Shown: one piece after another, positions 46,039-64,000 of the stretch | Position numbering within the stretch: position 1 is the stretch's first letter | How the letters are laid out: each line of letters starts with the position of its first letter | Assembly: GCF_017641085.1 (NCBI RefSeq) | Contig: NZ_JAEPPI010000003.1 | Coordinates: 1 to 64,000, forward strand | Origin: Gracilimonas sp. | Lineage (GTDB): Bacteria; Bacteroidota; Rhodothermia; Balneolales; Balneolaceae | DNA length: 64,000 nucleotides | Reading direction: 5' to 3' | Program-made: the position numbers and the translations under genes | Notes under the pieces: model-generated | Told to the model about the DNA's origin: nothing | Database searches by the model: none | The model's input: only the letters and a program-made list of their open reading frames with translations

Positions 46039-47505
46039 TTAGTACGACCGAGCGAACAACACCTTCTGCTTAGAAGGCTTCCCGGTTACCATACATTTTC
46101 CTTCTTCCCCATCCTCAAGCGGAATCAGGCGAATGGTTGCCTTGGTATCTTCTTTAATTTTTTCTTCGGTCTCCGCCGTTCCATCCCAATGAGCCCAAAC
46201 AAAGCCGCCTTTGTCTTTAATCACCTTGCGGAACTCGTCATAAGAATCAACGTGTGAAGTCATTTCTTCCCGTCGTTCTTTAGCTTTGGTGAACAATTCA
46301 TCCTGAATGTCAGCCAGCAGCTTTTGGATGCGCTTGCTGAGTCCTTCCCGGGATTCAATGTTTTTCTCTTTGGTATCCCGGCGCGCCAGTTCTACATTAT
46401 TGTTTTCCAGATCACGGGGGCCAACGGCTATTCTTAATGGGATGCCGGCAGCTTCATGTTCAGCAAACTTATAGCCCGGATTTTGATTGTCGCGGTCATC
46501 CACTTTTATGCGGACTCCCAACTCTTTCAACTCATCATGGATACTATCGGCGTATTCGAGTACAGCTTCACGTTGCTCATCGCTTCGGTAAATAGGCACT
46601 ATTACAACCTGGGTAGGGGCCAGTTTAGGAGGAAGCACCAGTCCCTGATCATCGGAGTGAGTCATAATCAAACCGCCTATTAACCGGGTGGAAACGCCCC
46701 AGCTGGTTGCCCAAACCAGTTTATGCTCGCCATCTTTGTCCTGAAATTTTACATCAAATGCTTTTGCGAAATTCTGTCCCAGGAAATGGGATGTTCCGGC
46801 CTGCAGAGCTTTTCCGTCCTGCATCAGGGCTTCAATACAATAGGTCTCAACAGCACCTGCAAATCGTTCGCTGGCTGTTTTTACCCCTTTAATGACCGGC
46901 ATCGCCATGAATTCTTCAGCAAAAGTAGCATATACGTCCAGCATCTGGCGCGTTTCTGCTTCAGCCTCTTCTTTGGTGGCGTGAGCCGTATGACCTTCCT
47001 GCCAGAGAAATTCCATGGTTCGCAAGAACAAACGGGTACGCATTTCCCAGCGGACTACATTCGCCCATTGATTTACAAGGATGGGAAGGTCTCGATACGA
47101 CTGTATCCACCCGCGGTAGGTGTCCCAGATAATGGTCTCTGAAGTAGGACGTACAATCAGTTCTTCTTCCAGCTTCGATTCGGGATCCACTTCCACTCCG
47201 CCATCCACGCTTTTGAGTCGGCTGTGAGTAACTACTGCACATTCCTTGGCAAAGCCCTCAACGTGCTGCGCTTCTTTAGATAAAAATGACTTTGGGATAA
47301 ACAGGGGGAAGTAGGCATTTTCATGGCCGGTATCTTTAAACATCTGGTCCAGGGCTTCGCGCATGTTTTCCCAGAGCGCCATACCATTCGGGCGAATCAC
47401 CATGCTTCCGCGCACGGGAGAGTGCTCGGCCAGTTTAGCTTCCCGGACTACATCCAGATACCATTGTGAATAATCTTTTTCCTGTGAAGTTATTTTTTGT
47501 GCCAT
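46039..47505 (-). CDS. proS: Prolyl-tRNA synthetase, type 3 (archaeal/eukaryal-like)
   Basis: A 488-aa class II synthetase. Motif 2 and 3 regions are seen ([48 protein letters not shown]), then an anticodon-binding domain ([18 protein letters not shown]) and a C-terminal domain ending in Tyr. There is no inserted editing (YbaK-like) domain between motifs 2 and 3, which marks the type-3 form rather than the common bacterial form. It charges tRNA-Pro. Confidence 0.95.
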
Positions 47506-48111
47506 GAACCTGTTTAATGTGATTTTTTACTTGAAGGGTGAAGTTAAGAAATGTAGCGTAGAGAATAAGGCAATGAAGACGAAAACTTTTTGTGCTTAAT
47601 CAGCCTTTATAACTTAAATATTCATCTTATTTCTCGTTATGAAGCTCCTGCTTCTTAGTGCACTCCGGAAAGCTCCATCTTCAAGTGGAATAAGTGTTAG
47701 AGCCTTTACAAATTTGCTTGTTCTTTTGTGCCGACAAAAGAACCAAAAACTCCCCGCTGCGAAAAAGGGGCTAAAGCTGACTTCATTTCGCTAAAAGAAA
47801 TCAATGCTCCTTCCCGTGCTCTGTTTGCTTCTTGATTTCTCAGCGGTATGATTTCTTTCTTAACGCTTCATTACATCATCTTCTTGACGCACCTTTTTCT
47901 AAGGCCGATTAAATAGTATTAACCTTGTACTAAGATTATCAGGGACTGACGATTTCAGATTGTTATTAATGAAGCACATCCACAAAAAAATGTTTTACCC
48001 TTTGTTTCAGAATGCCGTATATTTGATGCCCTTCTTGAAAAGGGCCACTAAAGCTCTAAAGCACAAAAGTAAATTTTAGTGTTTTTTGAGATTTCGTGGC
48101 GATTCAAAGAT
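47506..48111. other. Gene-free stretch before the island
   Basis: About 600 bp without a supported gene. It contains a perfect palindrome at 47720-47743 and a small hairpin (GCCCTT with AAGGGC, 48028-48045), 66 bp before the tRNA remnant. I find no convincing promoter or RNA gene here. Confidence 0.5.
47720..47743. repeat. Perfect palindrome (10-bp arms)
   Basis: GTTCTTTTGT and ACAAAAGAAC flank GCCG. The surrounding bases (AACCAAAAACTCCCCGCTGC) recall a short repeat seen in Bacteroidota-like genomes, from memory only. It has one copy in this window. Confidence 0.5.
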
Positions 48112-48152
48112 GCCGTGGTAGCTCAGATGGTTAGAGCGCACGACTCATAATC
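48112..48152 (+). pseudogene. 5' half of a tRNA with CAT anticodon (island attachment site)
   Basis: The sequence from the acceptor strand GCCGTGG through TA, D-arm GCTC-AGATGGTTA-GAGC and anticodon arm CACGA-CTCATAA to TC fits a tRNA with anticodon CAT (Met or Ile2). After TC the expected stem partner TCGTG is missing, and no T-arm or 3' acceptor strand follows. The break point in the anticodon arm, with an integrase 192 bp downstream, marks an integration junction. Confidence 0.8.
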
Positions 48153-48172
48153 TGTAAAATCGCCATTTACAG
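48152..48172 (+). promoter_or_regulatory. Candidate recombination core (7-7-7 inverted repeat)
   Basis: CTGTAAA and TTTACAG form perfect 7-bp arms around the 7-bp ATCGCCA, starting exactly where homology to the tRNA stops. Tyrosine recombinases bind inverted arms around a 6-8 bp overlap, so this is a plausible core or accessory site. The role is inferred. Confidence 0.45.
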
Positions 48173-48343
48173 GTGTTTAAGCCCCTCTTTTTCTGCCGCC
48201 AGTTGAAAAAAACGCAGCTAGACGGCATGACTTTTCGTACTTTTTTCATCGGTTCCTCCGGTGAAATTTTCTCTTCAGCGGAATAAAAAAACTCCCGATC
48301 CCCGAGCTTGCACTTGTTCATTTAACCAAAAAATACAGGTGCT

Positions 48344-49465
48344 ATGGATTATGCAATTTATCCGTTTAAACGAGGCAAGAAATATCAACTTTATGTTCAA
48401 TACAGAGAAACGAACGGAAGAAGGCGGACGCTTTCAACCGGGATAAGCTATCCGCTTCGGGCTACCAAGAAAGTCAGAGATGCGGCCATGAAAAAAGCCG
48501 AGCGATTGGGCATAGAGCGTATGCTCGAGGACAAAGCCCAAAAAAAGGAACGACGCCGAATCAATGAAAAGTTCAGCAACTTCCTGAAAGACAAATATTT
48601 TGTGCACGTGCAGAATAACATGGCCGAGAACTCCGTGCCTATTTACGTGAATGCCATGAACCGGTTCATGAGCATCTGCGGAAATAAAAACGTAAATAGC
48701 TACCAGCGCTCCGATATTCAAGATTATAAACTTCATCGCCTCAATGTAGACGGGGTTAAAAAGACCACCATCAATATTGAACTTCGGAGTATCAAAGCCG
48801 GATTCAACTGGGGGCAGAATAACGAGTACATCCAAAAGCATCCGTTTCGTGGGCAAGGCTACATGTTTGAAGTGGATGACCGTCGGGAAGAGCTCTCTAA
48901 AGATCAAATCCAAAGACTGCTAAAACATACGCAGGGTACGATGATCGGGCTGGTGATTCGGTTTGGGTACAACACCGGAGCTCGAATTGGGATGATTTCC
49001 AAAATGACATGGAGGATGGTCAACTTTGAAGAGCGCTACATTCATTTCCCAGCTGAGATTATGAAAGGCAAAAAGGCCTTCACTATGCCTCTGAATAATC
49101 AGGCGTTCAATATTGTGCAGGTCTGGCATGCGCTGGCCAAAAAGAGCAAGAAGGAAAATCCCCATTGGTATGATGGCATTTCCTTCAAAGACACCTATGT
49201 GGTGCAAAAAGAAAAAAGCAGTGGCTGTTACACCGTTAGCGGAATACAGACCATGTTTAACCGGGCGAAAGAAGAGATTGGAATCCCCAACAAGATTAAA
49301 TTCCACAGCCTTCGTCATTCATTTGCCACGCACCTTCTCGAAAATGGAGCTGATATTTATTCGGTAAGTAAACTTATGGCGCATTCCAGTGTACAGGTTA
49401 CCGCCAGCTTCTACGATCACACCGATGCCCTCAATTATCGGGACGTGGCGAATATGATTGGGTAG
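48344..49465 (+). CDS. Tyrosine recombinase/integrase
   Basis: A 373-aa tyrosine recombinase. An N-terminal Arm/SAM-like DNA-binding part (about 1-180) is followed by the catalytic domain. The catalytic residues are visible: Arg214 (NTGARIGMIS), a beta-hairpin lysine near 241-244 (MKGKKAF), His321/Arg324 (HSLRHSFATHLL), His347 and Tyr357 (MAHSSVQVTASFYDH). It is located at the tRNA remnant and should catalyse integration and excision of the island. No excisionase gene is seen next to it. Confidence 0.95.
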   Translation: MDYAIYPFKRGKKYQLYVQYRETNGRRRTLSTGISYPLRATKKVRDAAMKKAERLGIERMLEDKAQKKERRRINEKFSNFLKDKYFVHVQNNMAENSVPIYVNAMNRFMSICGNKNVNSYQRSDIQDYKLHRLNVDGVKKTTINIELRSIKAGFNWGQNNEYIQKHPFRGQGYMFEVDDRREELSKDQIQRLLKHTQGTMIGLVIRFGYNTGARIGMISKMTWRMVNFEERYIHFPAEIMKGKKAFTMPLNNQAFNIVQVWHALAKKSKKENPHWYDGISFKDTYVVQKEKSSGCYTVSGIQTMFNRAKEEIGIPNKIKFHSLRHSFATHLLENGADIYSVSKLMAHSSVQVTASFYDHTDALNYRDVANMIG

Positions 49466-49486
49466 TGAACTATTAATCAACAAACT

Positions 49487-49520
49487 GAAAAGGGGCGACT
49501 TGGGTTAAGCCCCTTTTTTT
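49487..49520 (+). terminator. Terminator after the integrase gene
   Basis: AAAAGGGGC and GCCCCTTTT pair around a 12-base loop and end in a T-run, 20 bp after the integrase stop codon. Confidence 0.9.
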
Positions 49521-49589: not shown

Positions 49590-49608
49590 CACAAATAGCA
49601 CAAAATTG

Positions 49609-49914
49609 ATGAATATATTCAACATTATGAAGTCAAAAAAGCAACACATATTTCCTCAGCATCAAACAATTCTGGACCAATTAGGCAAGAATATTAAGTT
49701 GGCTAGAAAAAGGAGAAAGCTTACCACTATCCAAGTAGCCGAGCGGGCAAATATTAATCGCACTACGTTGTATAATATCGAGCGCGGGAAGCCTTCAGTA
49801 GCTCTTGGGGCTTATTTCAATGTACTCAGGGTACTTAATCTTCATAAAGACTTTCTTAAACTTGCAGCCGATGATAAGTTAGGGCGAAAACTACAAGACT
49901 TGGGTCTCAAGTGA
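49609..49914 (+). CDS. HipB-like XRE family regulator
   Basis: A 101-aa protein from ATG 49609; a later in-frame ATG at 49627 is also possible. The XRE helix-turn-helix is LGKNIKLARKRRKLTTIQVAERANINRTTLYNIERGKPSVALGAYFNVLRVL, described here by its parts: IQVAERANI is the first helices and INRTTLYNIERG the recognition region (around residues 45-60). The C-terminus (DDKLGRKLQDLGLK) is typical of HipB-type antitoxins paired with HipA kinases. A HipS-like gene follows after 390 bp, but no kinase gene is present. Confidence 0.82.
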   Translation: MNIFNIMKSKKQHIFPQHQTILDQLGKNIKLARKRRKLTTIQVAERANINRTTLYNIERGKPSVALGAYFNVLRVLNLHKDFLKLAADDKLGRKLQDLGLK

Positions 49915-50306: not shown

Positions 50307-50648
50307 ATGAGAACAGCAAGAATTACTAGAAACGGAGAAAGGGTTGGTGCATTAATTCAATACCACAAAAAATCTTATGAATTTATATATGATGATGACT
50401 GGTTTCAGGATTCAGCAAAACCTCCGGTTAGTCTTACCATGCCAAAAACCCAAAAAGTTTATCAGTCAGATCATCTATTCCCATATTTTTTCAATATGTT
50501 GACAGAGGGGAACAACAGAGCTTATCAGCATCAGTACTACGAAATTCACCTACAAGACCATTTTGGATTGTTATTAGCTATCGGAAATTTTGATCCGATT
50601 GGAGCAATCCATGTAATCTCTATGATTAGTGAAGAGTTTGATGAATAG
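50307..50648 (+). CDS. Stand-alone HipA N-terminal domain protein (HipS-like)
   Basis: A 113-aa protein that matches only the N-terminal subdomain of HipA: VGALIQYHKKSYEFIYDDDW, then PPVSLTMPKTQKVYQSDHL, LFPYFFNMLTEGNNR and FGLLLAIGNFDPIGAIHV. In the tripartite HipBST toxin-antitoxin system this domain is a separate protein, HipS, which neutralises the HipT kinase. Here no HipT/HipA kinase follows; an AbiEi-like gene comes next after 139 bp. The protein ends cleanly after the domain, so it is not an obvious frameshift remnant. Confidence 0.8.
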   Translation: MRTARITRNGERVGALIQYHKKSYEFIYDDDWFQDSAKPPVSLTMPKTQKVYQSDHLFPYFFNMLTEGNNRAYQHQYYEIHLQDHFGLLLAIGNFDPIGAIHVISMISEEFDE

Positions 50649-50787: not shown

Positions 50788-51615
50788 ATGGAAATGATCC
50801 ATAAAAACATATCAACAGAATCTAGTGTACTGCTGACATATCTGGCAAAGCAGAAGAAACGTTGTTTTGAAGTAGCTGATGCAAAAGAAGCTTTTCCGGA
50901 CTCCTCGGAAAATACGGTGCTTAAGTTGCTTTCTGATATGGCAGCAAGAGGGCTCTTAATGAGGTTAAAACAAGGAGTGTATTGTGTAATACCATATGAA
51001 GAAGATCCTGGTAATTATATGCCTGAATGGCACGTGTTACCGGAATATTTAGTATCCGATGGTGAATACTACATCGGATATTATTCGGCTATGGAAATTC
51101 ATAATCTGATCACACAGCCTTCCCTAAAAGAACAGGTAGTGGTATCAAAGCAGGTGAAGCCAAGCATCCAAAAGATCAAAGATGTGACGTTTCAATTTAT
51201 CTACCATAATGAAAAGCATTTCTTTGGGTATAAAAAGAAATGGATAAACTCATATGATAAAGTTTGGTGCTCTGATCTGGAAAAGACGCTGGTCGATTGT
51301 CTGTATAAACCGGATTATGCCGGGGGAATAGTGGAAGTAGCTCGTGGGCTTTATAAGAGAAAAGACGATATCTCTTATGATAAGCTGTTAGAATATATCA
51401 TCAAATTTGATTCTCAGGTTGTGATTAAACGCTTGGGGTTTATACTGGAAATGCTTGAAATTGAGACGGACATTATCCCGAAATTGCAGAAGCTTAAAAC
51501 AGCCTCTTTCACCGTATTAGATACTGAGCTTCCCAAAAAAGGAAAAATGTACAGTCGCTGGAGTATTCGCCAAAATTTGGATACAGAAACAATTAAATCC
51601 GCTATTAATACCTAG
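50788..51615 (+). CDS. AbiEi-like antitoxin/regulator
   Basis: A 275-aa protein with an N-terminal winged-helix domain (about 1-75: FEVADAKEAFPDSSENTVLK, LMRLKQGVYCVIP) and a C-terminal AbiEi-type domain (YIGYYSAMEIHNLITQP, VWCSDLEKTLVDCLYKPDYAGG, IKRLGFILEMLEIE). In type IV toxin-antitoxin systems AbiEi represses the operon and counteracts the AbiEii nucleotidyltransferase. No AbiEii gene follows; the next 320 bp hold a terminator and repeats. A weak inverted repeat (ATGAG/CTCAT, 50736-50752) lies upstream of the gene. Confidence 0.82.
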   Translation: MEMIHKNISTESSVLLTYLAKQKKRCFEVADAKEAFPDSSENTVLKLLSDMAARGLLMRLKQGVYCVIPYEEDPGNYMPEWHVLPEYLVSDGEYYIGYYSAMEIHNLITQPSLKEQVVVSKQVKPSIQKIKDVTFQFIYHNEKHFFGYKKKWINSYDKVWCSDLEKTLVDCLYKPDYAGGIVEVARGLYKRKDDISYDKLLEYIIKFDSQVVIKRLGFILEMLEIETDIIPKLQKLKTASFTVLDTELPKKGKMYSRWSIRQNLDTETIKSAINT

Positions 51616-51882: not shown

Positions 51883-51937
51883 TAGCCATTGTGTATGTTA
51901 AAAGGGCATTGTTATAAATCTGTTTTTCGGAGTGCTC

Positions 51938-53887
51938 ATGGCCAACAATTACTTAACTAAATCCAAGTTCACACATTGTCTGGAATGCCCAACAAAGCTC
52001 TACTACAAAAACCACGAAGACGAGTATGCCACTTCACAAGACGACAATGATTTCCTACAAGCTTTAGCTGAAGGCGGTATCCAAGTTGGGGAATTAGCCA
52101 AGCTGTACTATCCCGGTGGCGTTGAGATTCCTTATTCCAGAGATAAATCTGTTTCCATTGAGCAGACTAAAGAATTGCTTCAACAAGATGAGGTTGTAAT
52201 TTATGAAGCAGCTATCCAACATGGATTGACATATTCCTTGGTTGATATCCTTGTTAAAGAGGGCAACGAGATCAAACTCATTGAGGTAAAATCAAAGTCT
52301 TGGGAATCGGGCGAAAGCTTCTACAAGCAAAATGGAGAGTTATACCCAAAGTGGCATAAGTATCTCTACGATGTAGCCTTCCAGACCTGGGTGATGCAAA
52401 AGGCTTATCCTGAATTCAATGTTCGTCCTTATCTCATGTTGATTGATAAAGGGGTTCCAACCAGTGTGGACGGCTTGCATCAGTACTTTAAGATCGTGGA
52501 GAATGAAGAAGGGCGGAGTGAAGTCAAGTTGACTGAAAACCGATCTGATATTGAGTTGGGCGATCCGATTATGACCACCATTGATGTCTCGAATGAAGTA
52601 GCCCTCATCTTTAACGGGGAAGCTCGAGAGCCGGAAAGCAAACTGGAAGCCAAAGACTTTGATCAGTGGATTGAGGGATTGTGTGAGCTGATTCGTAAAG
52701 ATGAAAAATACCCGGTGACCATAGGAGCCAAATGCCGGAATTGTGAGCATCGGGTGAACCCCGAAAAGCTGAACGGTAAAAAAGCCGGGTTTAATGAGTG
52801 CTGGAAAGAAGCGTTGAATTGGAGCGAAAAAGAACTTGCCAAACCACATGCCTTTGATGTGTGGTACGCCGATTCAAAAAAGTATATAGATGATGAGATC
52901 TATCTCATGGAGGAGATCACTCCAGAGTATTTGGACGTAGATGAAGACTCTTTGTACCAACAGCCGATTTGGGATAGCAGAGATGAGCGAAAACTGGCTC
53001 AGGTTATGAAAATGACCGGCCGGCATGATGCTAGTGAAGTGATCCTGCCCGGACTATTCCAGGAAATGGAAAGCTGGACCTATCCTCTGCACTTCATCGA
53101 CTTTGAGGGTATTGCTCCGGCTATTCCGTTTCACAAAGGGTGTTATCCCTATAAAAAGATACCCTTTCAGTTTTCTATGCATAACGTTTACGATGATGGA
53201 AGAGTAGAACATGCGGCTGAATGGGTGGACAAAAGAAAGGGCGTGTATCCGGGCTTTGATTTTGTACGGGAACTCAAGAAAGTCCTGGAACAGGATGAAG
53301 GCAGCGTGTTTATGTATCATCATTATGAAAAGACGACCTTGAATGATGTGAAAAGACGCCTATTGGAATCTGAAGAACCGGATCGGGAAGAACTGATTGC
53401 CTGGATTGATACGCTGGTCACCAAAGGAGCACCACGAGAACTCATTGATCAGCAGTGGCTGGTTGTGAAGTATTACTACTCGGTGTACATGGGCGGTTCC
53501 AACAGCATCAAAGATGTATTACCCGCTGTTTTAAACGAAAGTGAAACCCTCAAGCAAATTTATTCCAATCCTTATTCAGGATTAAGCATGAAAGACAAAG
53601 TGCTCTACCAAACCAATGAAAACGGAAAGGTGATCAATCCCTATAAGCTGCTTGATCCGGTGGGCTATGGCATTCCGGATGAATCCGAAGATGTGGAAAT
53701 AGAACTGGAATCCGGGGAACGAATCACCGAAGGTGGCACCGCCATGATGGCCTGGGCACGCATGCAGTTTGATGATTTGCCGGAAGAGGAGCGGGATAGG
53801 GTGTTTGAGGCTTTACTGCGTTATTGTGAGTTGGATACGCTGGCCATGGTGATGATTTATCAGCATTGGGAGTTTTTGAAAGATTAA
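51938..53887 (+). CDS. DUF2779 protein: Fe-S/PD-(D/E)XK nuclease plus RNase H-fold domain
   Basis: A 649-aa protein; the ATG at 51938 follows CGGAG at suitable spacing, while the GTG at 51932 is too close. The N-terminal part has CLECPTKLYY (Cys14, Cys17) and an IEVKSKSW strand with candidate catalytic Asp103, Glu116 and Lys118, as in Cas4-like nucleases. Further cysteines (CRNCEHRV, ECWKEA) could complete an Fe-S cluster. A C-terminal DEDD-type exonuclease-like domain starts at LHFIDFEGIAP (about residue 390). Its function is unknown, and such genes occur near defence genes. The next gene starts 14 bp later. Confidence 0.8.
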   Translation: MANNYLTKSKFTHCLECPTKLYYKNHEDEYATSQDDNDFLQALAEGGIQVGELAKLYYPGGVEIPYSRDKSVSIEQTKELLQQDEVVIYEAAIQHGLTYSLVDILVKEGNEIKLIEVKSKSWESGESFYKQNGELYPKWHKYLYDVAFQTWVMQKAYPEFNVRPYLMLIDKGVPTSVDGLHQYFKIVENEEGRSEVKLTENRSDIELGDPIMTTIDVSNEVALIFNGEAREPESKLEAKDFDQWIEGLCELIRKDEKYPVTIGAKCRNCEHRVNPEKLNGKKAGFNECWKEALNWSEKELAKPHAFDVWYADSKKYIDDEIYLMEEITPEYLDVDEDSLYQQPIWDSRDERKLAQVMKMTGRHDASEVILPGLFQEMESWTYPLHFIDFEGIAPAIPFHKGCYPYKKIPFQFSMHNVYDDGRVEHAAEWVDKRKGVYPGFDFVRELKKVLEQDEGSVFMYHHYEKTTLNDVKRRLLESEEPDREELIAWIDTLVTKGAPRELIDQQWLVVKYYYSVYMGGSNSIKDVLPAVLNESETLKQIYSNPYSGLSMKDKVLYQTNENGKVINPYKLLDPVGYGIPDESEDVEIELESGERITEGGTAMMAWARMQFDDLPEEERDRVFEALLRYCELDTLAMVMIYQHWEFLKD

Positions 53888-54905: not shown

Positions 54906-57900
54906 ATGACCAAAGAAAGTCAGATTGAAGAACAATTAATTGAGCAGCTGCAGGAGCTGAAATATACCTATAGATCTGATATTACGGATAGGGATTCGTT
55001 GGAAGCAAACTTCAAAAAGAAGTTTGAATCGCTTAATCGGGTACACTTATCAGAGAGTGAATTTCTACGGCTTAGAGAAGATATTATTGAGCCGGATGTT
55101 TTTGAAGCTTCTAAAAAGCTTCGTGAAAGACAATACTTCCAACGAGAAGATGGTACACCCCTTCATTACACTTTAGTGAACATTAATGAGTGGTGTAAGA
55201 ATGAATTTGAGGTTATTAGACAACTGCGTATCAATACAGAGAACAGCAATCAGAGGTATGATTTAGTACTTTTGATTAATGGTCTACCAGTTGTACAGAT
55301 TGAACTGAAGAGATTAGACATCTCACCACGGAAAGCCATGCAGCAGATCGTGGATTATAAGAATGAGCCCGGCAATGGGTACGGAAATACTTTGATGTGT
55401 TTCATGCAGTTGTTCATAGTGAGCAACAGAAGCAATACGATTTATTTTGCCAACAATAAAAATCAGCACTTTCAATTCAATGCTGATGAGCAGTTTTTGC
55501 CCATTTACCAACTGGCAGATGAGAGCAATAAAAAAATTACTCACCTTGAACCGTTCACCAAGAAATTTCTCTCCAAGTGTACATTGGGTGAAATGATCAG
55601 TAAATATATGGTGCTGGTGGAAAGCGAGCAGAAAATGCTGGTCATGCGGCCATATCAGATCTATGCAGTAAAAGCTATTGTAGATTGTATAGATCAAAAT
55701 CGGGGTAATGGGTATATATGGCATACTACAGGAAGTGGTAAAACGCTTACTTCTTTTAAGGCTTCTACACTGCTAAAGAGCAATCCAAATATCGAAAAGT
55801 GTCTTTTTGTGGTTGACCGAAAAGATCTTGATCGACAAACCCGAGAGGAATTCAATAAATTTCAGGAGGGTAGTGTAGAAGAAAATACCAATACCGAAAT
55901 GTTGGTTAGGCGTTTACTCTCCACGGACTATGCAGATAAGGTTATTGTAACTACTATTCAGAAATTAGGATTGGCCTTGGATGGTGGCTACAAAAGAAAT
56001 TATAAAGAACGACTGGAGCCTCTAAGCGATAAACGCATGGTATTCATCTTTGATGAGTGTCACCGCTCACAATTTGGAGTTAACCATCAGGCTATAAAAG
56101 AGTTTTTTCCAAATGCCCAACTTTTTGGTTTTACCGGGACTCCCATATTTGATGATAATGCAAATTATAAAATCCGGGAAGGGCAATATGAAAAGTACAA
56201 GACCACAGAAACCGTCTTTGAAAAACAGCTTCATGCTTACACAATTACTCATGCTATAGATGATAAAAACGTACTACGATTTCATATAGATTACTTTAAA
56301 GGGAAGGGGGATCAAAATCCGAAACCAGGAACTGGAATTGCTCAACATGCTGTAGCAGAAGCGATTATCGACAAGCACAATAAAGCGACCAATCAGCGTA
56401 AATTTAATGCCATTTTTGCCACCTCATCCATTAATAATGCGATTGAATACTACCGTATATTCAGTGAACTTCAAGAAGAAAAGAAAACTGAAAATGAAGA
56501 CTATGTTCCGCTCAATATTGCCTGTGTATTTTCTCCTCCGGCACAATTAATTGCTAAGGAAGGAGACAAGAGAAGCCAGAGAAATGCGGCCGATATACAG
56601 CAATTGCAGGAAGATTTGGCTCAGGAAAAAGAAGATAACAAGCATAATCCTGAGGAAAAGAAAGAAGCTTTAATGGAAATTATTGCTGACTACAATACTC
56701 AGTACGGCACCAATCACAGCATCAATGAATTTGACTTGTACTATCAGGATGTGCAAAGCCGGATTAAAGACCAGAAATTTAGCAACAAGGATTATCCGCA
56801 TAAAAACAAGATTGATATAACCATTGTGGTAGATATGTTGCTTACCGGATTTGATTCCAAATACCTCAACACCCTATATGTAGATAAGAACTTAAACTAT
56901 CATGGATTGATCCAGGCGTTTTCGCGGACCAATCGGGTATTAAATGATAGTAAACCCTATGGGAATATTTTAGATTTCCGCTCTCAGCAGGAATCAGTAA
57001 ATGAGGCTATTACCCTCTTTTCTGGTGAAGATGCTGGAAAAGCCAAAGAAGTCTGGATGGTTGATCCTGCTCCTGTTGTAATTGATAAATACCAAGAAGC
57101 TGTGGAGAAACTGGGCGTATTCATGCAAGAACATGATTTGGTGAACGAGCCGGGGGAAGTGTACAACCTGAGAGGTGATGCAGCGAAGGTTGCTTTCATA
57201 AAAAACTTTAAGGAAGTACAACGTCTTAAAACCCAGCTTGATCAGTACACGGATTTGGATGAAGAACAACAGGCTTCTATCGAAAAAATTCTTCCTGAAG
57301 AGACTTTACAAGAATTCAGGAGTTCTTATTTAGAAACAGCTAAGCATCTGCGAGATATACAACAAAAAGAAGGCGAAGATGCGCCTGAAGATATTCAGCA
57401 GCTGGATTTTGAGTTCGTACTCTTCGCTTCTGCGGTAATTGATTATGATTACATCATGAACCTGGTAGCTGACAGCACGCAGAAGAAACCTTCCAAGCAA
57501 AAAATGTCCAAGGCCCAGGTCATAAGTCTTTTGAAGTCCAATTCCAACCTGATGGAGGAAGAGGAAGACCTGACGGATTACATTAACAGTCTGGATTGGG
57601 ACAGTGGAAAGGATGTACAAACACTTCGAGAAGGCTATGAAACCTTTAAAATAGAAAAGCATGAAAAAGAATTGGCAGCTATTGCGAATAAACACGGTTT
57701 ACAAACGGCTGACTTAAAAAGCTTTGTAGAACAGATTATGAGCCGAATGATATTTGACGGGGAAAACCTCACCGATTTACTGGAACCTTTAGAACTTAGC
57801 TGGAAAGAACGCAGAACCAAAGAACTGGCATTGATGGAAGACTTAGTTCCACAATTAAAAAAACTGGCTGAAGGGCGTGAAATTTCGGGGCTAGCTGCTT

Positions 57901-57908
57901 ATGAGTAA
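54906..57908 (+). CDS. hsdR: Type I restriction enzyme, R subunit
   Basis: A 1000-aa HsdR. The N-terminal PD-(D/E)XK nuclease has Asp119 (NQRYDLVLL) and Glu133/Lys135 (VVQIELKR). The SF2 motor has Walker A HTTGSGKT (274-280), DEAD-box motif DECHRSQFG (383-386), FGFTGTPIF, MLLTGFDSKYL and motif VI QAFSRTNRVL. A C-terminal helical region binds the methyltransferase core. HsdR moves DNA and cuts distant from unmodified target sites. Its stop overlaps hsdS by 8 bp. Confidence 0.96.
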   Translation: MTKESQIEEQLIEQLQELKYTYRSDITDRDSLEANFKKKFESLNRVHLSESEFLRLREDIIEPDVFEASKKLRERQYFQREDGTPLHYTLVNINEWCKNEFEVIRQLRINTENSNQRYDLVLLINGLPVVQIELKRLDISPRKAMQQIVDYKNEPGNGYGNTLMCFMQLFIVSNRSNTIYFANNKNQHFQFNADEQFLPIYQLADESNKKITHLEPFTKKFLSKCTLGEMISKYMVLVESEQKMLVMRPYQIYAVKAIVDCIDQNRGNGYIWHTTGSGKTLTSFKASTLLKSNPNIEKCLFVVDRKDLDRQTREEFNKFQEGSVEENTNTEMLVRRLLSTDYADKVIVTTIQKLGLALDGGYKRNYKERLEPLSDKRMVFIFDECHRSQFGVNHQAIKEFFPNAQLFGFTGTPIFDDNANYKIREGQYEKYKTTETVFEKQLHAYTITHAIDDKNVLRFHIDYFKGKGDQNPKPGTGIAQHAVAEAIIDKHNKATNQRKFNAIFATSSINNAIEYYRIFSELQEEKKTENEDYVPLNIACVFSPPAQLIAKEGDKRSQRNAADIQQLQEDLAQEKEDNKHNPEEKKEALMEIIADYNTQYGTNHSINEFDLYYQDVQSRIKDQKFSNKDYPHKNKIDITIVVDMLLTGFDSKYLNTLYVDKNLNYHGLIQAFSRTNRVLNDSKPYGNILDFRSQQESVNEAITLFSGEDAGKAKEVWMVDPAPVVIDKYQEAVEKLGVFMQEHDLVNEPGEVYNLRGDAAKVAFIKNFKEVQRLKTQLDQYTDLDEEQQASIEKILPEETLQEFRSSYLETAKHLRDIQQKEGEDAPEDIQQLDFEFVLFASAVIDYDYIMNLVADSTQKKPSKQKMSKAQVISLLKSNSNLMEEEEDLTDYINSLDWDSGKDVQTLREGYETFKIEKHEKELAAIANKHGLQTADLKSFVEQIMSRMIFDGENLTDLLEPLELSWKERRTKELALMEDLVPQLKKLAEGREISGLAAYE

Positions 57909-59217
57909 AGAGAATAAATTGACACCTGAGTTACGGTTTCCGGAGTTTGATAAGGATGGAAATTGGAAGCTGGCACCATTTAATAAATTATATTCATTAA
58001 AGATTACAAACTCATTTTCCAGAAATAAGCTAAACCTAGAAACGGGCTCAGTAAAAAATATTCATTATGGTGATATACATACTCAATTTTCAACACTTTT
58101 TGATATAACTAAGGAAAAAGTTCCCTTCATTAATCCAGATGTTTCTATCGAAGGAATAGATCAAGAAAATTATTGCTCTGAAGGTGACATAATAATGGCT
58201 GATGCCTCAGAAGATTTAGATGACATTGGCAAAAGCATTGAAATAGTAAATTTAAATAATGAAAAACTACTATCTGGTCTTCATACTCTACAGGCTAGAC
58301 AAATAAAACCAAATTTCATTATCGGTTTTGGTGGTTATTTATTTAAATCTGCAGCTATACGAAAACAGATAAAGAGACAGGCTCAAGGAGCAAAAGTTTT
58401 AGGGATTTCTAAGGGAAGAATTTCTGAAATAAATGTCTATTACCCTGAAAAAAAAGAAGAACAACAAAAAATCGTTGACTGTCTTTCTTCTTTAGATGAA
58501 TTGATAACCGCCCATAAAAATAAGTTAGATTCTCTCAAAGACCACAAAAAGAGCTTGTTACAAAACTTCTTTCCTCATGACAAAAGAAAGAAACCTAAGT
58601 ATCGTTTTCCAGAGTTTGAGAAAGAGGGGGACTGGGAAATGGGTAAATTTTCGAAATATATAAAATTAGATAGGGGAAGTTCACCACGCCCAATAAGAGA
58701 ATATCGAACAAAAAGTGATGATGGAGTAAATTGGATTAAAATTGGTGACACCGGTGCTGATGATGATTTTAAAATCAGCTCCGTAGAGGAAAAAATAACG
58801 CAAAAAGGTGCAGAAAAATCCAGGAGAGTTAGTAAGGGCGAATTGATTTTGGCCAACTCCATGAGTTATGGTAAAACTTATGAAATAGATATTGATGGAT
58901 GCATATACGATGGTTGGTTTGTCCTTCGGGAATATGAAGAATCATTTGATAAACAATTCCTTCTTCAGCTTCTCAATTCGGATTATATGCAATATCAGTA
59001 CGAAAAATATGCTGCTGGCGGTATTGTGAAAAACATTAGTAGTAAAATTGTATATAACACGGTGCTCCCTAGGCCATCGCTAGATGAACAAAAGAAAATT
59101 GCCTCTTGTCTCTCGGAATGTGATGAATTAATCCATGCTGAAAAAGATAAATTAGAAGAGTTAGAGTTGCATAAAAAGGGCTTGATGCAAGGGCTATTTC
59201 CTAAAATAAGTAATTAA
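57901..59217 (+). CDS. hsdS: Type I restriction enzyme, specificity subunit
   Basis: A 438-aa HsdS with two target-recognition domains, each introduced by a RFPEF motif (ELRFPEFDKDGNW at the start, YRFPEFEKEGDW near 235) and each followed by a conserved helix (EEQQKIVDCLSSLDELI and DEQKKIASCLSECDELI). The repeated RFPEF arrangement is typical of type IC enzymes. The two TRDs read the two halves of a bipartite DNA target that cannot be predicted. It is AT-rich and overlaps hsdR. Confidence 0.95.
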   Translation: MSKENKLTPELRFPEFDKDGNWKLAPFNKLYSLKITNSFSRNKLNLETGSVKNIHYGDIHTQFSTLFDITKEKVPFINPDVSIEGIDQENYCSEGDIIMADASEDLDDIGKSIEIVNLNNEKLLSGLHTLQARQIKPNFIIGFGGYLFKSAAIRKQIKRQAQGAKVLGISKGRISEINVYYPEKKEEQQKIVDCLSSLDELITAHKNKLDSLKDHKKSLLQNFFPHDKRKKPKYRFPEFEKEGDWEMGKFSKYIKLDRGSSPRPIREYRTKSDDGVNWIKIGDTGADDDFKISSVEEKITQKGAEKSRRVSKGELILANSMSYGKTYEIDIDGCIYDGWFVLREYEESFDKQFLLQLLNSDYMQYQYEKYAAGGIVKNISSKIVYNTVLPRPSLDEQKKIASCLSECDELIHAEKDKLEELELHKKGLMQGLFPKISN

Positions 59218-59222
59218 AGAAA

Positions 59223-60356
59223 ATGAGCGATCGTACAAATTTTAATAGCTTAGAAGAAGTTGCGGATCATTTTAGGAAATATTTAACTGGAGATCGTAGA
59301 AGTGAGAAAGAGTTTATACTACTCTTTGCACATAATGGGACTGGGAAGACAAGGTTATCCATGGAGTTTAAAGAGCTGGGTAAGGCAGATGAAGAAACTC
59401 GTGATACCTTATACTTTAATGCTTTTACAGAAGACCTGTTTGTTTGGGATAATGATCTTGAGGGGAATGTAAATAGAGCTTTAAAACTGAATAAGGATTC
59501 GGTCTTTTTTGAGGGTCTCCAGGAATTGGAAATGGAAAACCGTATTGGACCCATTTTTCAAAACTATGTAGACCTAAATTTCTTCATTGATTACGATGAG
59601 TATAAAGTAACTTTCTCAAGAGATATCGTAGTTGACGGAGAACAAGAAACCATTAGTGATATAAAAATATCAAGAGGAGAGGAAAATCTATTCATTTGGT
59701 GCTTTTTTATAGCAATATGCGAGTTAGCAGTTGACCATGTAGAAAATGAAGACGGGGCATACAGCTGGGTTAAATACATATATATAGATGATCCAATTTC
59801 ATCGTTGGATGAAAATAATGCAATAGCTGTAGCTTGTGACTTGGCAAGGTTAATTAAAAGGGACGATAACAACATTAAGACCGTAGTCTCAACTCATCAT
59901 AGTCTCTTTTTCAATGTCATGTTTAATGAGCTTTGCCGGAAAATTAAGAATAAATGCTACTTCTTACATTCAAATGGGTTAAATAATTATGAGTTAAAGA
60001 ATACAGGTGATACTCCTTTTTTTCATCATATTGCAGTAATTAGTGAACTAAAAAAAGTAGCAGAATCAGATTTAATATATACTTATCACTTTAATGCAAT
60101 GAGAAGTGTATTAGAAAAAACAGCAAGCTTTTTTGGATATGATAAAATTGATAAGTGTATCCATGGTTTAGAAGATGAAGTTCTTTTTGAAAGAGCTTTA
60201 CAGTTATTTAGTCATGGTAAATATTCTGTATTTGATCCGAGAGAGATGGGAGTTGACAATAAGGACCTATTTAAAAGAATATTAGATGGATTTTTAGAAA
60301 AATATGAATTTGATCTTCCTGAAATATTCAATGACGAAATTCAAACTGAAGAATAA
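59223..60356 (+). CDS. prrC: PrrC-like anticodon nuclease (ABC ATPase) within the hsd operon
   Basis: A 377-aa ABC-type ATPase: Walker A AHNGTGKT (36-43), NAFTEDLFVWDND (66-78), signature ISRGEE (149-154), Walker B YIYIDD (185-190), SSLD D-loop (193-196) and H-loop THH (224-226). The C-terminal part has Arg294-x3-Glu298-x32-His331 (HFNAMRSVLEK and LFSHGK), matching the catalytic triad of E. coli PrrC (Arg320, Glu324, His356). PrrC cuts the anticodon loop of tRNA-Lys when its partner type IC enzyme is blocked. Length is close to PrrC (396). It overlaps hsdM by one base. Confidence 0.85.
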   Translation: MSDRTNFNSLEEVADHFRKYLTGDRRSEKEFILLFAHNGTGKTRLSMEFKELGKADEETRDTLYFNAFTEDLFVWDNDLEGNVNRALKLNKDSVFFEGLQELEMENRIGPIFQNYVDLNFFIDYDEYKVTFSRDIVVDGEQETISDIKISRGEENLFIWCFFIAICELAVDHVENEDGAYSWVKYIYIDDPISSLDENNAIAVACDLARLIKRDDNNIKTVVSTHHSLFFNVMFNELCRKIKNKCYFLHSNGLNNYELKNTGDTPFFHHIAVISELKKVAESDLIYTYHFNAMRSVLEKTASFFGYDKIDKCIHGLEDEVLFERALQLFSHGKYSVFDPREMGVDNKDLFKRILDGFLEKYEFDLPEIFNDEIQTEE

Positions 60357-62011
60357 TGACTAAGAAACAACAACAAGAGTTAGGTAAAACACTTTGGAAC
60401 ATAGCTAATCAATTGCGAGGGGCTATGAATGCTGATTCCTTTCGTGATTACATGCTTTCCTTTTTGTTTTTAAAGTATCTCTCAACGAACTATGAAGCAT
60501 CGGCTAAGAAAGAGCTAGGATCAGATTATCCTGATGATACGCCTCCAGATGTAATGGAAAAGCTCAATGCAAATTCTCCACTACAAGTTTGGTATGCTGA
60601 GAATGAAGAGTTCGTACCTGAGTTTGAAAAACAAATGCGTAGAAAAGTACATTACGTTATCAAACCTGAACACCTCTGGAGTAACATTTCTGAAATGGCC
60701 CGGACTCAGGACGGCGACCTATTGGTTACTCTTGAAAAAGGGTTCCGTTACATTGAAAACGATTCGTTTGAGAATACGTTTCAAGGCTTGTTTTCAGAAA
60801 TCAATCTGAGCTCTGACAAACTGGGTAAGACACCAAAAGAACGAAATAAAAAGCTCTGTACTATCATCCAGAAGATCGCAGAAGGGATTGCTGATTTCTC
60901 AACCGATACAGATACGCTTGGTGATGCCTATGAATATTTAATTGGCCAGTTTGCTGCCGGTTCAGGTAAAAAGGCGGGTGAATTTTATACCCCTCAACAA
61001 ATCTCTACCATTCTCTCTGAGATCGTCACCTTAGACAGTCAAGATCCCTCAACGGGCAAGAAGAACAAACTGGATAATGTACTTGATTTCGCTTGCGGTT
61101 CCGGTTCCTTATTACTGAACGTTAGGAAGCGCGTTATAGAAAATGGTGGAACCATTGGTAAAATTTACGGGCAAGAAAATAACGTAACCACATACAACCT
61201 GGCCAGGATGAACATGCTCCTTCACGGGATGAAAGATACCGAGTTTGAGATTTTCCATGGTGACACTTTAAAAAACCAGTGGGACGTTTTGAATGAAATG
61301 AATCCTTCCAAAAAAACGGAGTTTGACGCCGTTGTTGCTAATCCACCCTTTAGTTTACGATGGGAGCCAAATGATGCCATGGCTGAAGATTTTCGATTCA
61401 AGAGTTATGGTTTAGCACCCAAATCAGCTGCCGATTTTGCATTCTTATTGCATGGTTTTCATTTTCTAAGTCAGGAAGGAACCATGGCAATTATTCTTCC
61501 ACATGGTGTTCTATTTCGAGGTGGTGCAGAAGAACGAATTCGCACCAAATTACTCAAAGACAACAATATCGATACTGTGATAGGATTGCCTTCTAATCTG
61601 TTCTATTCGACTGGTATCCCTGTTTGTATTCTTGTGTTGAAAAAGTGTAAGAAGGAAGACGATGTACTTTTCATAAATGCGAGTGAGCACTATGATTCTG
61701 GGAAGAGGCAAAACTCACTTGGAGAAGAACACATCTCTAATATTGTCGATACTTACAAAGACAGAAATGAAGCTGACCGTTATTCTCGCAAAGTTTCATT
61801 GGATGAAATCGAAAAGAACGGTTTCAATCTAAACATTTCGAGATATGTGAGTACAGCAGAGGCGGAGCCTCGCGTAGATTTGCATGAGGTGAATAAAAAA
61901 CTGGTGGATTTGGAAAAGGATATTACTGAGACTACAAAGAAGCATAATTCTTTTTTAGAGGAGTTGGGATTGCCTTTATTGCCTTTAGGTGATTCGGAGA
62001 GTAAGGAGTAA
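60356..62011 (+). CDS. hsdM: Type I restriction enzyme, methyltransferase subunit
   Basis: A 551-aa N6-adenine methyltransferase. It has an N-terminal helical domain (LWNIANQLRGAMNADSFRDY), GEFYTPQQISTIL, SAM motif I LDFACGSGSLLL (about 243-254), and catalytic motif IV NPPF (329-332), with a coiled-coil C-terminus. It methylates the host target DNA and, with HsdS, forms the core to which HsdR binds. It is placed after the PrrC-like gene, so the order is hsdR-hsdS-prrC-hsdM. Confidence 0.96.
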   Translation: MTKKQQQELGKTLWNIANQLRGAMNADSFRDYMLSFLFLKYLSTNYEASAKKELGSDYPDDTPPDVMEKLNANSPLQVWYAENEEFVPEFEKQMRRKVHYVIKPEHLWSNISEMARTQDGDLLVTLEKGFRYIENDSFENTFQGLFSEINLSSDKLGKTPKERNKKLCTIIQKIAEGIADFSTDTDTLGDAYEYLIGQFAAGSGKKAGEFYTPQQISTILSEIVTLDSQDPSTGKKNKLDNVLDFACGSGSLLLNVRKRVIENGGTIGKIYGQENNVTTYNLARMNMLLHGMKDTEFEIFHGDTLKNQWDVLNEMNPSKKTEFDAVVANPPFSLRWEPNDAMAEDFRFKSYGLAPKSAADFAFLLHGFHFLSQEGTMAIILPHGVLFRGGAEERIRTKLLKDNNIDTVIGLPSNLFYSTGIPVCILVLKKCKKEDDVLFINASEHYDSGKRQNSLGEEHISNIVDTYKDRNEADRYSRKVSLDEIEKNGFNLNISRYVSTAEAEPRVDLHEVNKKLVDLEKDITETTKKHNSFLEELGLPLLPLGDSESKE

Positions 62012-62152: not shown

Positions 62153-64000
62153 ATGAACACGAATAGCAAAGCGAACCTATCTACTTTATTCAAAGATAGA
62201 ATCTATATTGTTCCAAATTATCAGAGAGGATATTCCTGGACGCCTTCAAATGTAAAAGACCTATTAAAAGATGTAGAAAATGCGATAAATCTTGGGGTGC
62301 CACATTACATGGGCACTGTAGCATTACATAAACAAGAAGAACGTATTGATATTGATGACTACACGGAATGGGATCAATTTCATGTAGTTGATGGTCAACA
62401 GCGTTTTACGACTTTAATTATGATCATCAGTGAATTGATTAATCGAATTGAAGGAGAGGATGTTGAAAGGTTAATCGAGCAGTATTTGAAGATAAGAGGA
62501 CAGTATATATTTCGGTACGAAGTGGATGAGATTAACAATCAATTTTTCAGATCCAGAATACTCAATCTGGAAAATAGTACTACAGATGAGAAAAACTTGT
62601 ATTCAGTAAATTTTCTAAAAGCTAAAGAGGCAATATCTACATATTTCGATAATTTTGAGAAAGATTATTATGTGAAATTTCTAAAAAAACTCCGCAGGGA
62701 TCTTTACTTCAATGAATTCACAGTTGAAAATCTAACACAAGTCAGTATAGTATTTGAAACGATAAATAACCGTGGATTATCATTGTCTACCTTGGAGCTG
62801 GTCAAAAATAGATTGCTGTATCTATTAGGAAAATCATCTGAGCGGGAAAACAGCAAAAAGAATACAGGGAAAAGAGATGCAACAAATTTTAAGTCATTAA
62901 TTGACAATTTTAACAGAGAGTGGGGAAACCTCTTAAAAAATCTAACACTTCCAAATAAAGTATTAAGCGAGGATGAATTTTTAAGGTATCATTGGAGAAT
63001 GTACAGAGGGTATGAAACGGAGATTTCAATAAAGAATCAGATTTTAAAAGAAGAATTTACTGTAGATCAACTCGTCAGTCAGGATAATTACATTGGTAAA
63101 ATAGATGAGTACGCAAAAAGTCTAGCTACCTATTCATTGTATTGGAAATATATAAATCATCCAGAGTCGCCGGATGCATTTGATTTTATACTCGATGGAA
63201 ATCAAAGAAAAAAAATTAAAACCCAGCTTGTCCGCTTAAAGAGATTAAATACAGCAACGATTAATCCACTACTACTTGTCGGTGCCGATATTTCCAGGGA
63301 AGAGCCAGAGTTTTATATTAGACTCTTGAAATTATGTGAACTGTTTTCGTTTCGAGTTTATGAAATGAATAGACGTCGATCTGATGTAGGGCTTTCGACA
63401 TTTGCAGGAGCAGCAAATCAGCTATTTGAGGCTTATAATAATGGTAACGTTAAGACAATTGACGAAGCGAAATCTGATTCTATTAAAAAATTAAAGTCAA
63501 ACATCAGTGAGTATGGAAATTGGCAAAAGTTTGAAAGCGAAATTGAAGAGCTTTTTAGGTCAGAAAAGAAAAGTGGATACTATTCGTGGAAGGGACTTCT
63601 TTATGCCTTATATGAATATGAAGAAATTTTAAGAGGTAATGAGGCTCCAAAATTAGACTATAATGAAATCACAAAGGAAAATTCTGTAGAACATATATAT
63701 CCACAAACACCTGACCATGAATACTGGACGGATAGATTTGGTGATTTTAATAATGATGAGCGAAAAAGGAAATTACATTCATTAGGTAACTTTCTGCTTT
63801 TAACAAAGGGTAAAAACTCAAGAATCAAAAATTATCCATTTGACAAAAAAATAGCTGAGTATAAGATGAGTAATTATTCTGCTAATGAATTGGCAAAAAA
63901 CCATTCAAATAATGAGTGGACCCCTGAAAAGATTGAAGAAAGAGAGAGTAAGCTTTTGCAATTCATATATGATCGATGGGATTTTGATAAGATCAATAAT
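62153..64000 (+). CDS. GmrSD-like DUF262/DUF1524 protein (partial)
   Basis: 616 codons without a stop, running off the right edge. The N-terminal DUF262 (GmrS-like) domain has VPNYQRGYSWT (20-30) and the nucleotide-hydrolysis motif VVDGQQRFTTL (Asp80 to Arg84). The C-terminal DUF1524 (GmrD-like, HNH-type) domain has NSVEHIYPQ (His514) and SLGNFLLLTKGKN. GmrSD enzymes are type IV restriction systems that cut glucosylated hydroxymethylcytosine DNA; target specificity here is unknown. It begins 141 bp after hsdM and probably belongs to the same defence module. Confidence 0.9.
   Translation, partial: MNTNSKANLSTLFKDRIYIVPNYQRGYSWTPSNVKDLLKDVENAINLGVPHYMGTVALHKQEERIDIDDYTEWDQFHVVDGQQRFTTLIMIISELINRIEGEDVERLIEQYLKIRGQYIFRYEVDEINNQFFRSRILNLENSTTDEKNLYSVNFLKAKEAISTYFDNFEKDYYVKFLKKLRRDLYFNEFTVENLTQVSIVFETINNRGLSLSTLELVKNRLLYLLGKSSERENSKKNTGKRDATNFKSLIDNFNREWGNLLKNLTLPNKVLSEDEFLRYHWRMYRGYETEISIKNQILKEEFTVDQLVSQDNYIGKIDEYAKSLATYSLYWKYINHPESPDAFDFILDGNQRKKIKTQLVRLKRLNTATINPLLLVGADISREEPEFYIRLLKLCELFSFRVYEMNRRRSDVGLSTFAGAANQLFEAYNNGNVKTIDEAKSDSIKKLKSNISEYGNWQKFESEIEELFRSEKKSGYYSWKGLLYALYEYEEILRGNEAPKLDYNEITKENSVEHIYPQTPDHEYWTDRFGDFNNDERKRKLHSLGNFLLLTKGKNSRIKNYPFDKKIAEYKMSNYSANELAKNHSNNEWTPEKIEERESKLLQFIYDRWDFDKINN

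Follow-up and report, generated by a model that had tools for sequence, protein, structure and literature searches.

A Gracilimonas defence island integrated in reverse orientation into the tRNA-Met anticodon loop

Islands that displace the 5′ fragment of their target tRNA gene are an already known minority among islands in tRNA genes. In the portion of the Islander report used here, 159 islands have 5′ fragments and 3760 have 3′ fragments, out of a total of 3919 (PMC4383910). Archaeal 5′-distal integrations likewise recombine at the 5′ part of the tRNA gene and are reported, in the excerpts used here, as less frequent (PMC6563490, PMC8371274); the thaumarchaeal survey calls this recombination "considerably less frequent", citing Zhao and Williams 2002 (PMC6563490). 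According to the excerpted part of a review, the original promoter continues to drive recombinant tRNA genes of bacteria, "with very few exceptions" (PMC8371274).

The island described here shares with the 5′-fragment islands of Islander, as that portion of the report presents them, a tRNA gene with a same-strand 5′ fragment, an integrase-bearing island between the two and a tRNA completed by element DNA. It differs from them in that a group of related integrases is involved, with two tRNA isotypes, a conserved promoter-like block at the tRNA end, a hybrid tRNA and one insertion into non-tRNA DNA. With ordinary 3′-restoring islands and prophages it has in common a tyrosine recombinase, an integrase next to the tRNA end and a crossover in the anticodon loop, which is frequent among them; here, however, it is the 5′ half that is replaced, and the tRNA appears to lose its native promoter. 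The tRNA-dependent lysogeny of mycobacteriophage Fionnbharth, in the excerpt of its description used here, is similar in that the element supplies the tRNA function under its own promoter and disrupts the host gene, but it has a core of roughly 10 bp, leaves the tRNA unrestored and carries a complete tRNA gene elsewhere (PMC10865867). In the present locus the repeat is 43 bp, the tRNA is rebuilt with reuse of the host 3′ half, and ARAGORN found no tRNA gene in the island part of the window. Unlike the suicidal integrases presented in the excerpts on archaeal elements (PMC6563490, PMC8371274), the integrase here has a complete open reading frame of 373 aa that is not interrupted by the attachment site.

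The window, the whole stretch of DNA that was analysed, comprises 64,000 nucleotides, positions 1-64000 of contig C3 in a 3.49 Mb genome of seven contigs (G000). The genome is from a marine Gracilimonas, a member of the Balneolaceae. An intact tRNA-Met(CAT) gene at C3:83167-83241 begins with exactly the same 41 nt as segment 48112-48152 (+ strand). Past the anticodon loop CTCATAA the identity extends over two more bases, in the 3′ strand of the anticodon stem, where it ends. ARAGORN identified no tRNA at this left junction, and no 3′ half stands behind the 41-nt 5′ half. The half lies within the left copy of an exact 43-bp direct repeat, the left attachment site [48110-48152, + strand], which equals C3:83165-83207 (search of the genome against itself, E 2.1e-15; equality checked). 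Chance is excluded as an origin of this repeat because its second copy falls exactly on the intact tRNA. The latter is on the + strand (ARAGORN), behind the second repeat copy. The island has a length of 35,055 bp and ends at C3:83207, and at this integrase-distal end the tRNA is rebuilt with a second, complete and identical 5′ half. The right end is not visible in the window, which stops about 19 kb short of it.

The genome of the congener G023 provides the empty site, in which the tRNA directly joins the left flank (95.5% identity) to the right flank (about 95%). By comparison with this site, the DNA upstream of the 41-nt segment is host DNA, and the segment itself is the displaced 5′ half of the host tRNA. 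The host 5′ half is stranded at the integrase end together with the DNA that precedes it in the host, and the host 3′ half is joined to the second 5′ half. The island has recombined at the anticodon loop of tRNA-Met in the reverse of the usual orientation, and the tRNA stays whole. As in the Islander definition, the intact tRNA and the fragment are on the same replicon in the same orientation, the integrase lies between them, and the length falls within 2-200 kb. The displaced fragment is the 5′ half, placed 35.0 kb upstream of the tRNA, and not the 3′ fragment of a 3′-restoring island.

The original prediction, made from the window, had placed an island inside a tRNA anticodon arm, with a 41-nt CAT-anticodon 5′ half that stops in the anticodon stem, an integrase behind it in the same orientation and no 3′ restoration at the junction. 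All of this is borne out by the identity with the intact gene, by the repeat at both ends and by the empty site. The matching 3′ half and the direct repeat that it proposed to look for at the right end are both there (C3:83165-83241). The 3′ half was thus correctly expected at the other end, where, however, a second and complete 5′ half has already been attached to it. A truly split tRNA, with the 5′ half left and the 3′ half right, lost or rejoined in trans, agrees with a left end that carries the 5′ half alone, yet it has next to no chance of being right and was rejected, as the complete tRNA-Met that ARAGORN finds at the right end (C3:83167-83241) is the very observation that the prediction had named as its refutation.

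The integrase gene [48344-49465, + strand], downstream of the 41-nt half and on the same strand, encodes a tyrosine recombinase of 373 aa with matches to PF00589 (E 8.9e-30) and PF13495. A search of 92 genomes of the family gave 14 related integrases in 12 genomes (E ≤ 1e-40). Eleven of the 14 sit behind a same-strand tRNA 5′ half, from tRNA-Met in four cases and from tRNA-Leu in seven, and the identity to the G000 integrase is 74-100% in the former and 42-50% in the latter. When we refer to a clade of integrases, pairwise similarity is meant and not a tree. At the 11 loci, 212-238 nt separate the D-arm region of the half from the start of the integrase. The intact partner tRNA is found downstream on the same contig in four of them, at 35.0 kb in G000, 39.8 kb in G025:C14, 37.2 kb in G019 and 25.3 kb in G009, and the right end is on a different contig in four more (G025:C19, G021 and two in G028). 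For G056, G059 and G062 we identified no partner right end; in G059 the DNA upstream of the intact tRNA-Leu(TAA) looks native, and the anticodon stem of this tRNA differs from that of the remnant. The three integrases with no half beside them are those of G020, G042 and G069. An intact tRNA-Leu lies 324 nt upstream of the G042 integrase, and the G069 match, with no clear half, starts at residue 97 and contains a stop.

Wider searches returned the same group. No further relative was found beyond these 12 genomes in a class-wide search of 244 genomes (E ≤ 1e-50), and a phylum-wide search of 394 genomes had matches in six, every one from the Balneolaceae (E ≤ 1e-35); both samples include members of the family. 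Neither PLSDB (E ≤ 1e-20) nor IMG/VR, searched with peptide patterns, contained a relative of the integrase, and a search of genome contigs gave one locus, in Gracilimonas. A nearby outgroup that could polarise the orientation was not found, the next matches being 25-26% identical (E ≤ 1e-15, 16 genomes).

The second part of the original prediction, that the junction may have decayed, corresponds to an ordinary 3′-restoring island whose 3′ half was lost, with the tRNA 35 kb away as an unrelated second copy. The base rate favours it, as 3760 of the 3919 Islander islands restore the 3′ end in the portion of the report used here (PMC4383910). It is nevertheless hardly credible and was rejected: in the G023 empty site a single tRNA joins exactly both flanks, and the same 5′-half arrangement recurs beside 11 of the 14 related integrases. 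We consider it highly probable that the locus is a 35,055-bp defence island, integrated in reverse orientation by tyrosine recombination at the anticodon loop of tRNA-Met, with an element-borne 5′ half and upstream region; a swap of promoters and a chimeric A/B structure would complete this picture.

We compared 21 open reading frames of the island with Pfam, and 18 of these with PADLOC. Ten of the 18 match defence families at E ≤ 1e-30, namely AbiEi, HsdR, HsdS, PrrC, HsdM, HEC-06 (GmrSD type), an LmuA-like metallo-beta-lactamase, Avs4, IetA and IetS. A second AbiEi is seen by Pfam, and its AbiEii partner matched weakly. The Pfam matches of the 21 reading frames, four of which have no match, include no phage structural or conjugation families, and on these matches the island is not classed as a prophage or an ICE. 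In the window the cargo is encoded on the + strand. It starts with an HTH regulator in a HipB-like position [49606-49914; PF01381] and a short protein with a HipA N-terminal domain [50307-50648; PF13657, weak PADLOC match to PDC-M03B], right behind the integrase. Such a pair of an HTH and a HipA N-terminal protein occurs in tripartite Hip systems; a third gene was not identified here. The pair is followed by an AbiEi-like protein [50788-51615; PF13338, PADLOC AbiEi E 3.3e-91] and a DUF2779 protein [51932-53887; PF11074]. The type I restriction genes, identified by both Pfam and PADLOC, are hsdR [54906-57908], hsdS [57901-59217] and hsdM [60356-62011]. A GmrSD-type restriction protein [62153-64000, continuing to C3:64072; PF03235, PF07510, PADLOC HEC-06] crosses the window's end. 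A gene for a PrrC-like anticodon nuclease [59223-60356; PADLOC PrrC E 1.7e-134] lies between hsdS and hsdM (57901-62011). PrrC effectors cut anticodons, and the island that carries this gene has an anticodon loop as its own site of recombination.

The leader of the integrase, between the stranded half and the start codon, has several features. An arm-type repeat of type A, CAGTTGAAAAA, at 48200-48210 (+ strand) is a putative integrase arm site; it is common to the type-A right ends of G027 and G028 and is absent from the island's own right end. The motif CGTACTT at 48236-48242 (+ strand) and the motif AGTACG, which precedes the 5′ half at right ends, were spotted by eye and are candidate functional motifs. 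An inverted repeat spans the ribosome-binding region of the integrase gene [48310-48342, + strand; RNA fold z -2.55]. A long A-rich loop is present in it, as in related integrase leaders. Hairpins with differing stem sequences cover the ribosome-binding region in 12 of the 13 leaders compared, that of G000 included, and z is -2 or lower in eight of the 13 (G000 and seven others); the G042 leader has no such hairpin. These hairpins suggest translational control of the integrase. An Rfam scan of 47500-49500 gave two sub-threshold matches, both to eukaryotic families, which we took as chance.

The two repeat copies of G000 are identical, and therefore its sequence alone can place neither the crossover nor the owner of the second 5′ half. 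Three relatives, with a hybrid tRNA, an apparent array and a secondary site, support the reading that this half belongs to the element, as part of attP, and that the element supplies the 5′ part of the tRNA. In G009 the acceptor strand of the stranded half is GCCCGAG, while the intact tRNA has GCCTGAG opposite the host strand CTCGGGT, with a T-G pair. When pair 4-69 is compared across the tRNA-Leu(CAA) genes of 12 congeners, seven have T-A, four have C-G and G009 alone has T-G. Of the two G009 halves, the stranded one is the match for the host 3′ strand, and the one in the intact gene is not; the latter is therefore element-borne, and the intact tRNA of G009 is a hybrid with a U.G acceptor pair.

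In G028, contig C12 has the host left flank, a half and an integrase; contig C28 has an element right end, a half and a second integrase; and contig C36 has an element right end, the intact tRNA and the host right flank. The three contigs fit an apparent tandem array A-B, which is pieced together from a MAG of 70 contigs with 4% contamination. The outermost half has one substitution, as expected for an unused remnant. In G020, the integrase end (C11) has no half, and at the right end there is the promoter motif together with a tRNA-Leu half that runs into non-tRNA DNA. The right flank was matched in six of the 11 congeners searched; the two flanks meet within 40 bp in G019, G014, G010 and G015 and within about 120 bp in G009 and G018. 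As this element occupies a non-tRNA site that is empty in relatives, the tRNA-Leu half is the element's own. The base that follows the anticodon is not the same in its two junctions, ATTCAATAT on the left and ATTCAAAAT on the right: the left one keeps the base of the G019 empty site and the right one keeps the tRNA base. From this mismatch, the exchange took place at the anticodon loop's 3′ edge.

These three cases also bear on a variant in which the island is reversed but the exchange took place at the 5′ end of the repeat, making the left half element-borne and the right half the host's original. The identical 43-bp copies in G000, which leave the crossover unplaced, are compatible with it. 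It is very unlikely given that in G009 the left, stranded half is the match for the host 3′ strand, that in G020 the half is at the element's right end in a non-tRNA site with a core mismatch putting the exchange 3′ of the anticodon, and that within the apparent array of G028 an element right end is succeeded by a half.

Some further tRNA loci were noticed in the course of these comparisons. The DNA upstream of the intact tRNA-Leu(CAA) at G018:C2:417037-417122 resembles the right end of the G020 element, and G018 has no integrase of this group at E ≤ 1e-40. In G005 a degenerate tRNA-Met copy (C55:15359-15422) lies directly upstream of an intact tRNA-Met and is perhaps the relic of an excised or decayed element. 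A 3′ fragment of tRNA-Leu(CAA), positions 29-86, at G016:C1:42575-42632 (- strand), 8.6 kb from the intact gene, probably marks a conventional 3′-restoring element at this tRNA. The first acceptor pair of tRNA-Leu(CAA) is G1-U72 in all 12 congeners, and the target tRNA-Met likewise shows a GGT-A ending. In G000 itself, the CAT tRNA at C3:349253-349327 (- strand) has the same first 41 bases as the CAT tRNA at C3:264827-264901 and a different 3′ half, giving a C6-A67 mismatch (by eye). Downstream of this tRNA, an integrase of 391 aa is encoded on the same strand; the tRNA may mark a second reverse element and is possibly another hybrid tRNA of a mobile element.

The relatives also support the reading that the region upstream of the second 5′ half belongs to the element, and this region holds a promoter-like motif. 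The pattern TTG-N21-TATATT occurs in all 12 right ends (five Met and seven Leu, picked by eye for arm repeats and the AGTACG motif), 208-231 nt before the half, where shuffled sequences give an expectation of 0.01; this strict pattern was fixed after inspection of the sequences, and a looser one is found in 12 of 12 against 2.26 expected. There is exactly one TTG-N21-TATATT in the 330 nt before the half of each right end, and neither pattern, strict or looser, is found in any of the 11 gaps between half and integrase. Over the motif the five Met right ends have 70 consecutive invariant alignment columns. The sequence GTTCTTT lies within 70 nt after the -7 box in eight of the 12 right ends. It resembles stretches of rRNA leaders that we take to be boxA-like, CGTTCTTTGACA in G009 and TGTTCTTAGACA in G023; the 16S gene of G000 itself was not found. 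At the other end of the island, a putative native promoter of the host tRNA, TTT-N21-TATATTTG, lies at 47994-48025 (+ strand), now on the integrase side, and the same sequence is upstream of the tRNA at the G023 empty site.

From this arrangement we infer that integration would exchange promoters between the integrase and the tRNA. In the excised circle, the element promoter would read through the half into the integrase gene. In the integrated state it would drive the tRNA, and the host tRNA promoter would face the stranded half and the integrase. Alternatively, the right-end motif may serve the integrase in the circle and nothing else, the tRNA being transcribed from another start or by read-through. 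Its distance of 208-231 nt from the tRNA, further than most native motifs, which lie about 48-119 nt before the tRNA (193 nt at the stranded half of G062), speaks for this. Against it, each of the 12 right ends has a single motif within 330 nt of the half, and the nearest gene upstream of the G000 motif, of 430 aa, is on the opposite strand, which makes the alternative quite unlikely.

The exchange of promoters may be general in this group. We propose, at somewhat less than even confidence, that the attP of the Balneolaceae integrase clade consists of a tRNA-type promoter, a boxA-like leader and a 5′ half, that the life cycle is built on promoter exchange, and that the host depends on element DNA for the start signal and the front half of its tRNA.

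The two ends of the G000 island do not match each other. The number of 7-mers shared between an element's own left and right ends is 8-18 in seven of nine pairs and zero in G000 and G020. The left end of G000 shares ten 7-mers with type-A right ends, while its own right end has the type-B repeats GTTACCAA. Such arm matching lacks exclusivity in the Leu elements. Some left ends match foreign right ends as well as their own or better; the left end of G025C14 shares 18 7-mers with the right end of G021 and 8 with its own. Over larger distances, the left 2 kb of the G000 island have 93% identity with type A of G028, and for the right 5.4 kb the identity with type B of G025 is 92%. The island is probably a chimera of a type-A left end and a type-B right end, which probably arose when a tandem A-B array lost its middle part. 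The mismatch of arm repeats might instead reflect functional divergence within one element, and the G020 ends, which likewise share no 7-mers, are in line with that. This is rather unlikely in view of the high identity of each end to a different type and of G028, which shows A and then B at the same tRNA. If the island is a chimera, its integrase may not recognise its own right end, and this copy may not excise itself.

In our literature search, which had most subscription papers outside its reach, we found no report of such elements in the Balneolaceae. Subject to that coverage, we would report as new that the arrangement is a habit of the whole family of elements and that the promoter block is conserved among them, and also the hybrid tRNA and the probable chimeric make-up of the G000 copy.

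When an island restores the 3′ end, the promoter of the tRNA stays untouched, whereas here the promoter and the 5′ half appear to be replaced by a whole group of elements. This replacement would give natural hybrid tRNAs and let a mobile element control a tRNA of its host; in G000 this element carries many defence systems. A 5′ half followed by an integrase is a simple search rule for such elements, and the promoter-exchange model is directly testable. If the host does depend on the element for the start signal and the front half of its tRNA, this dependence would penalise loss of the right end and would keep the defence cargo, and clean excision would be harmless.
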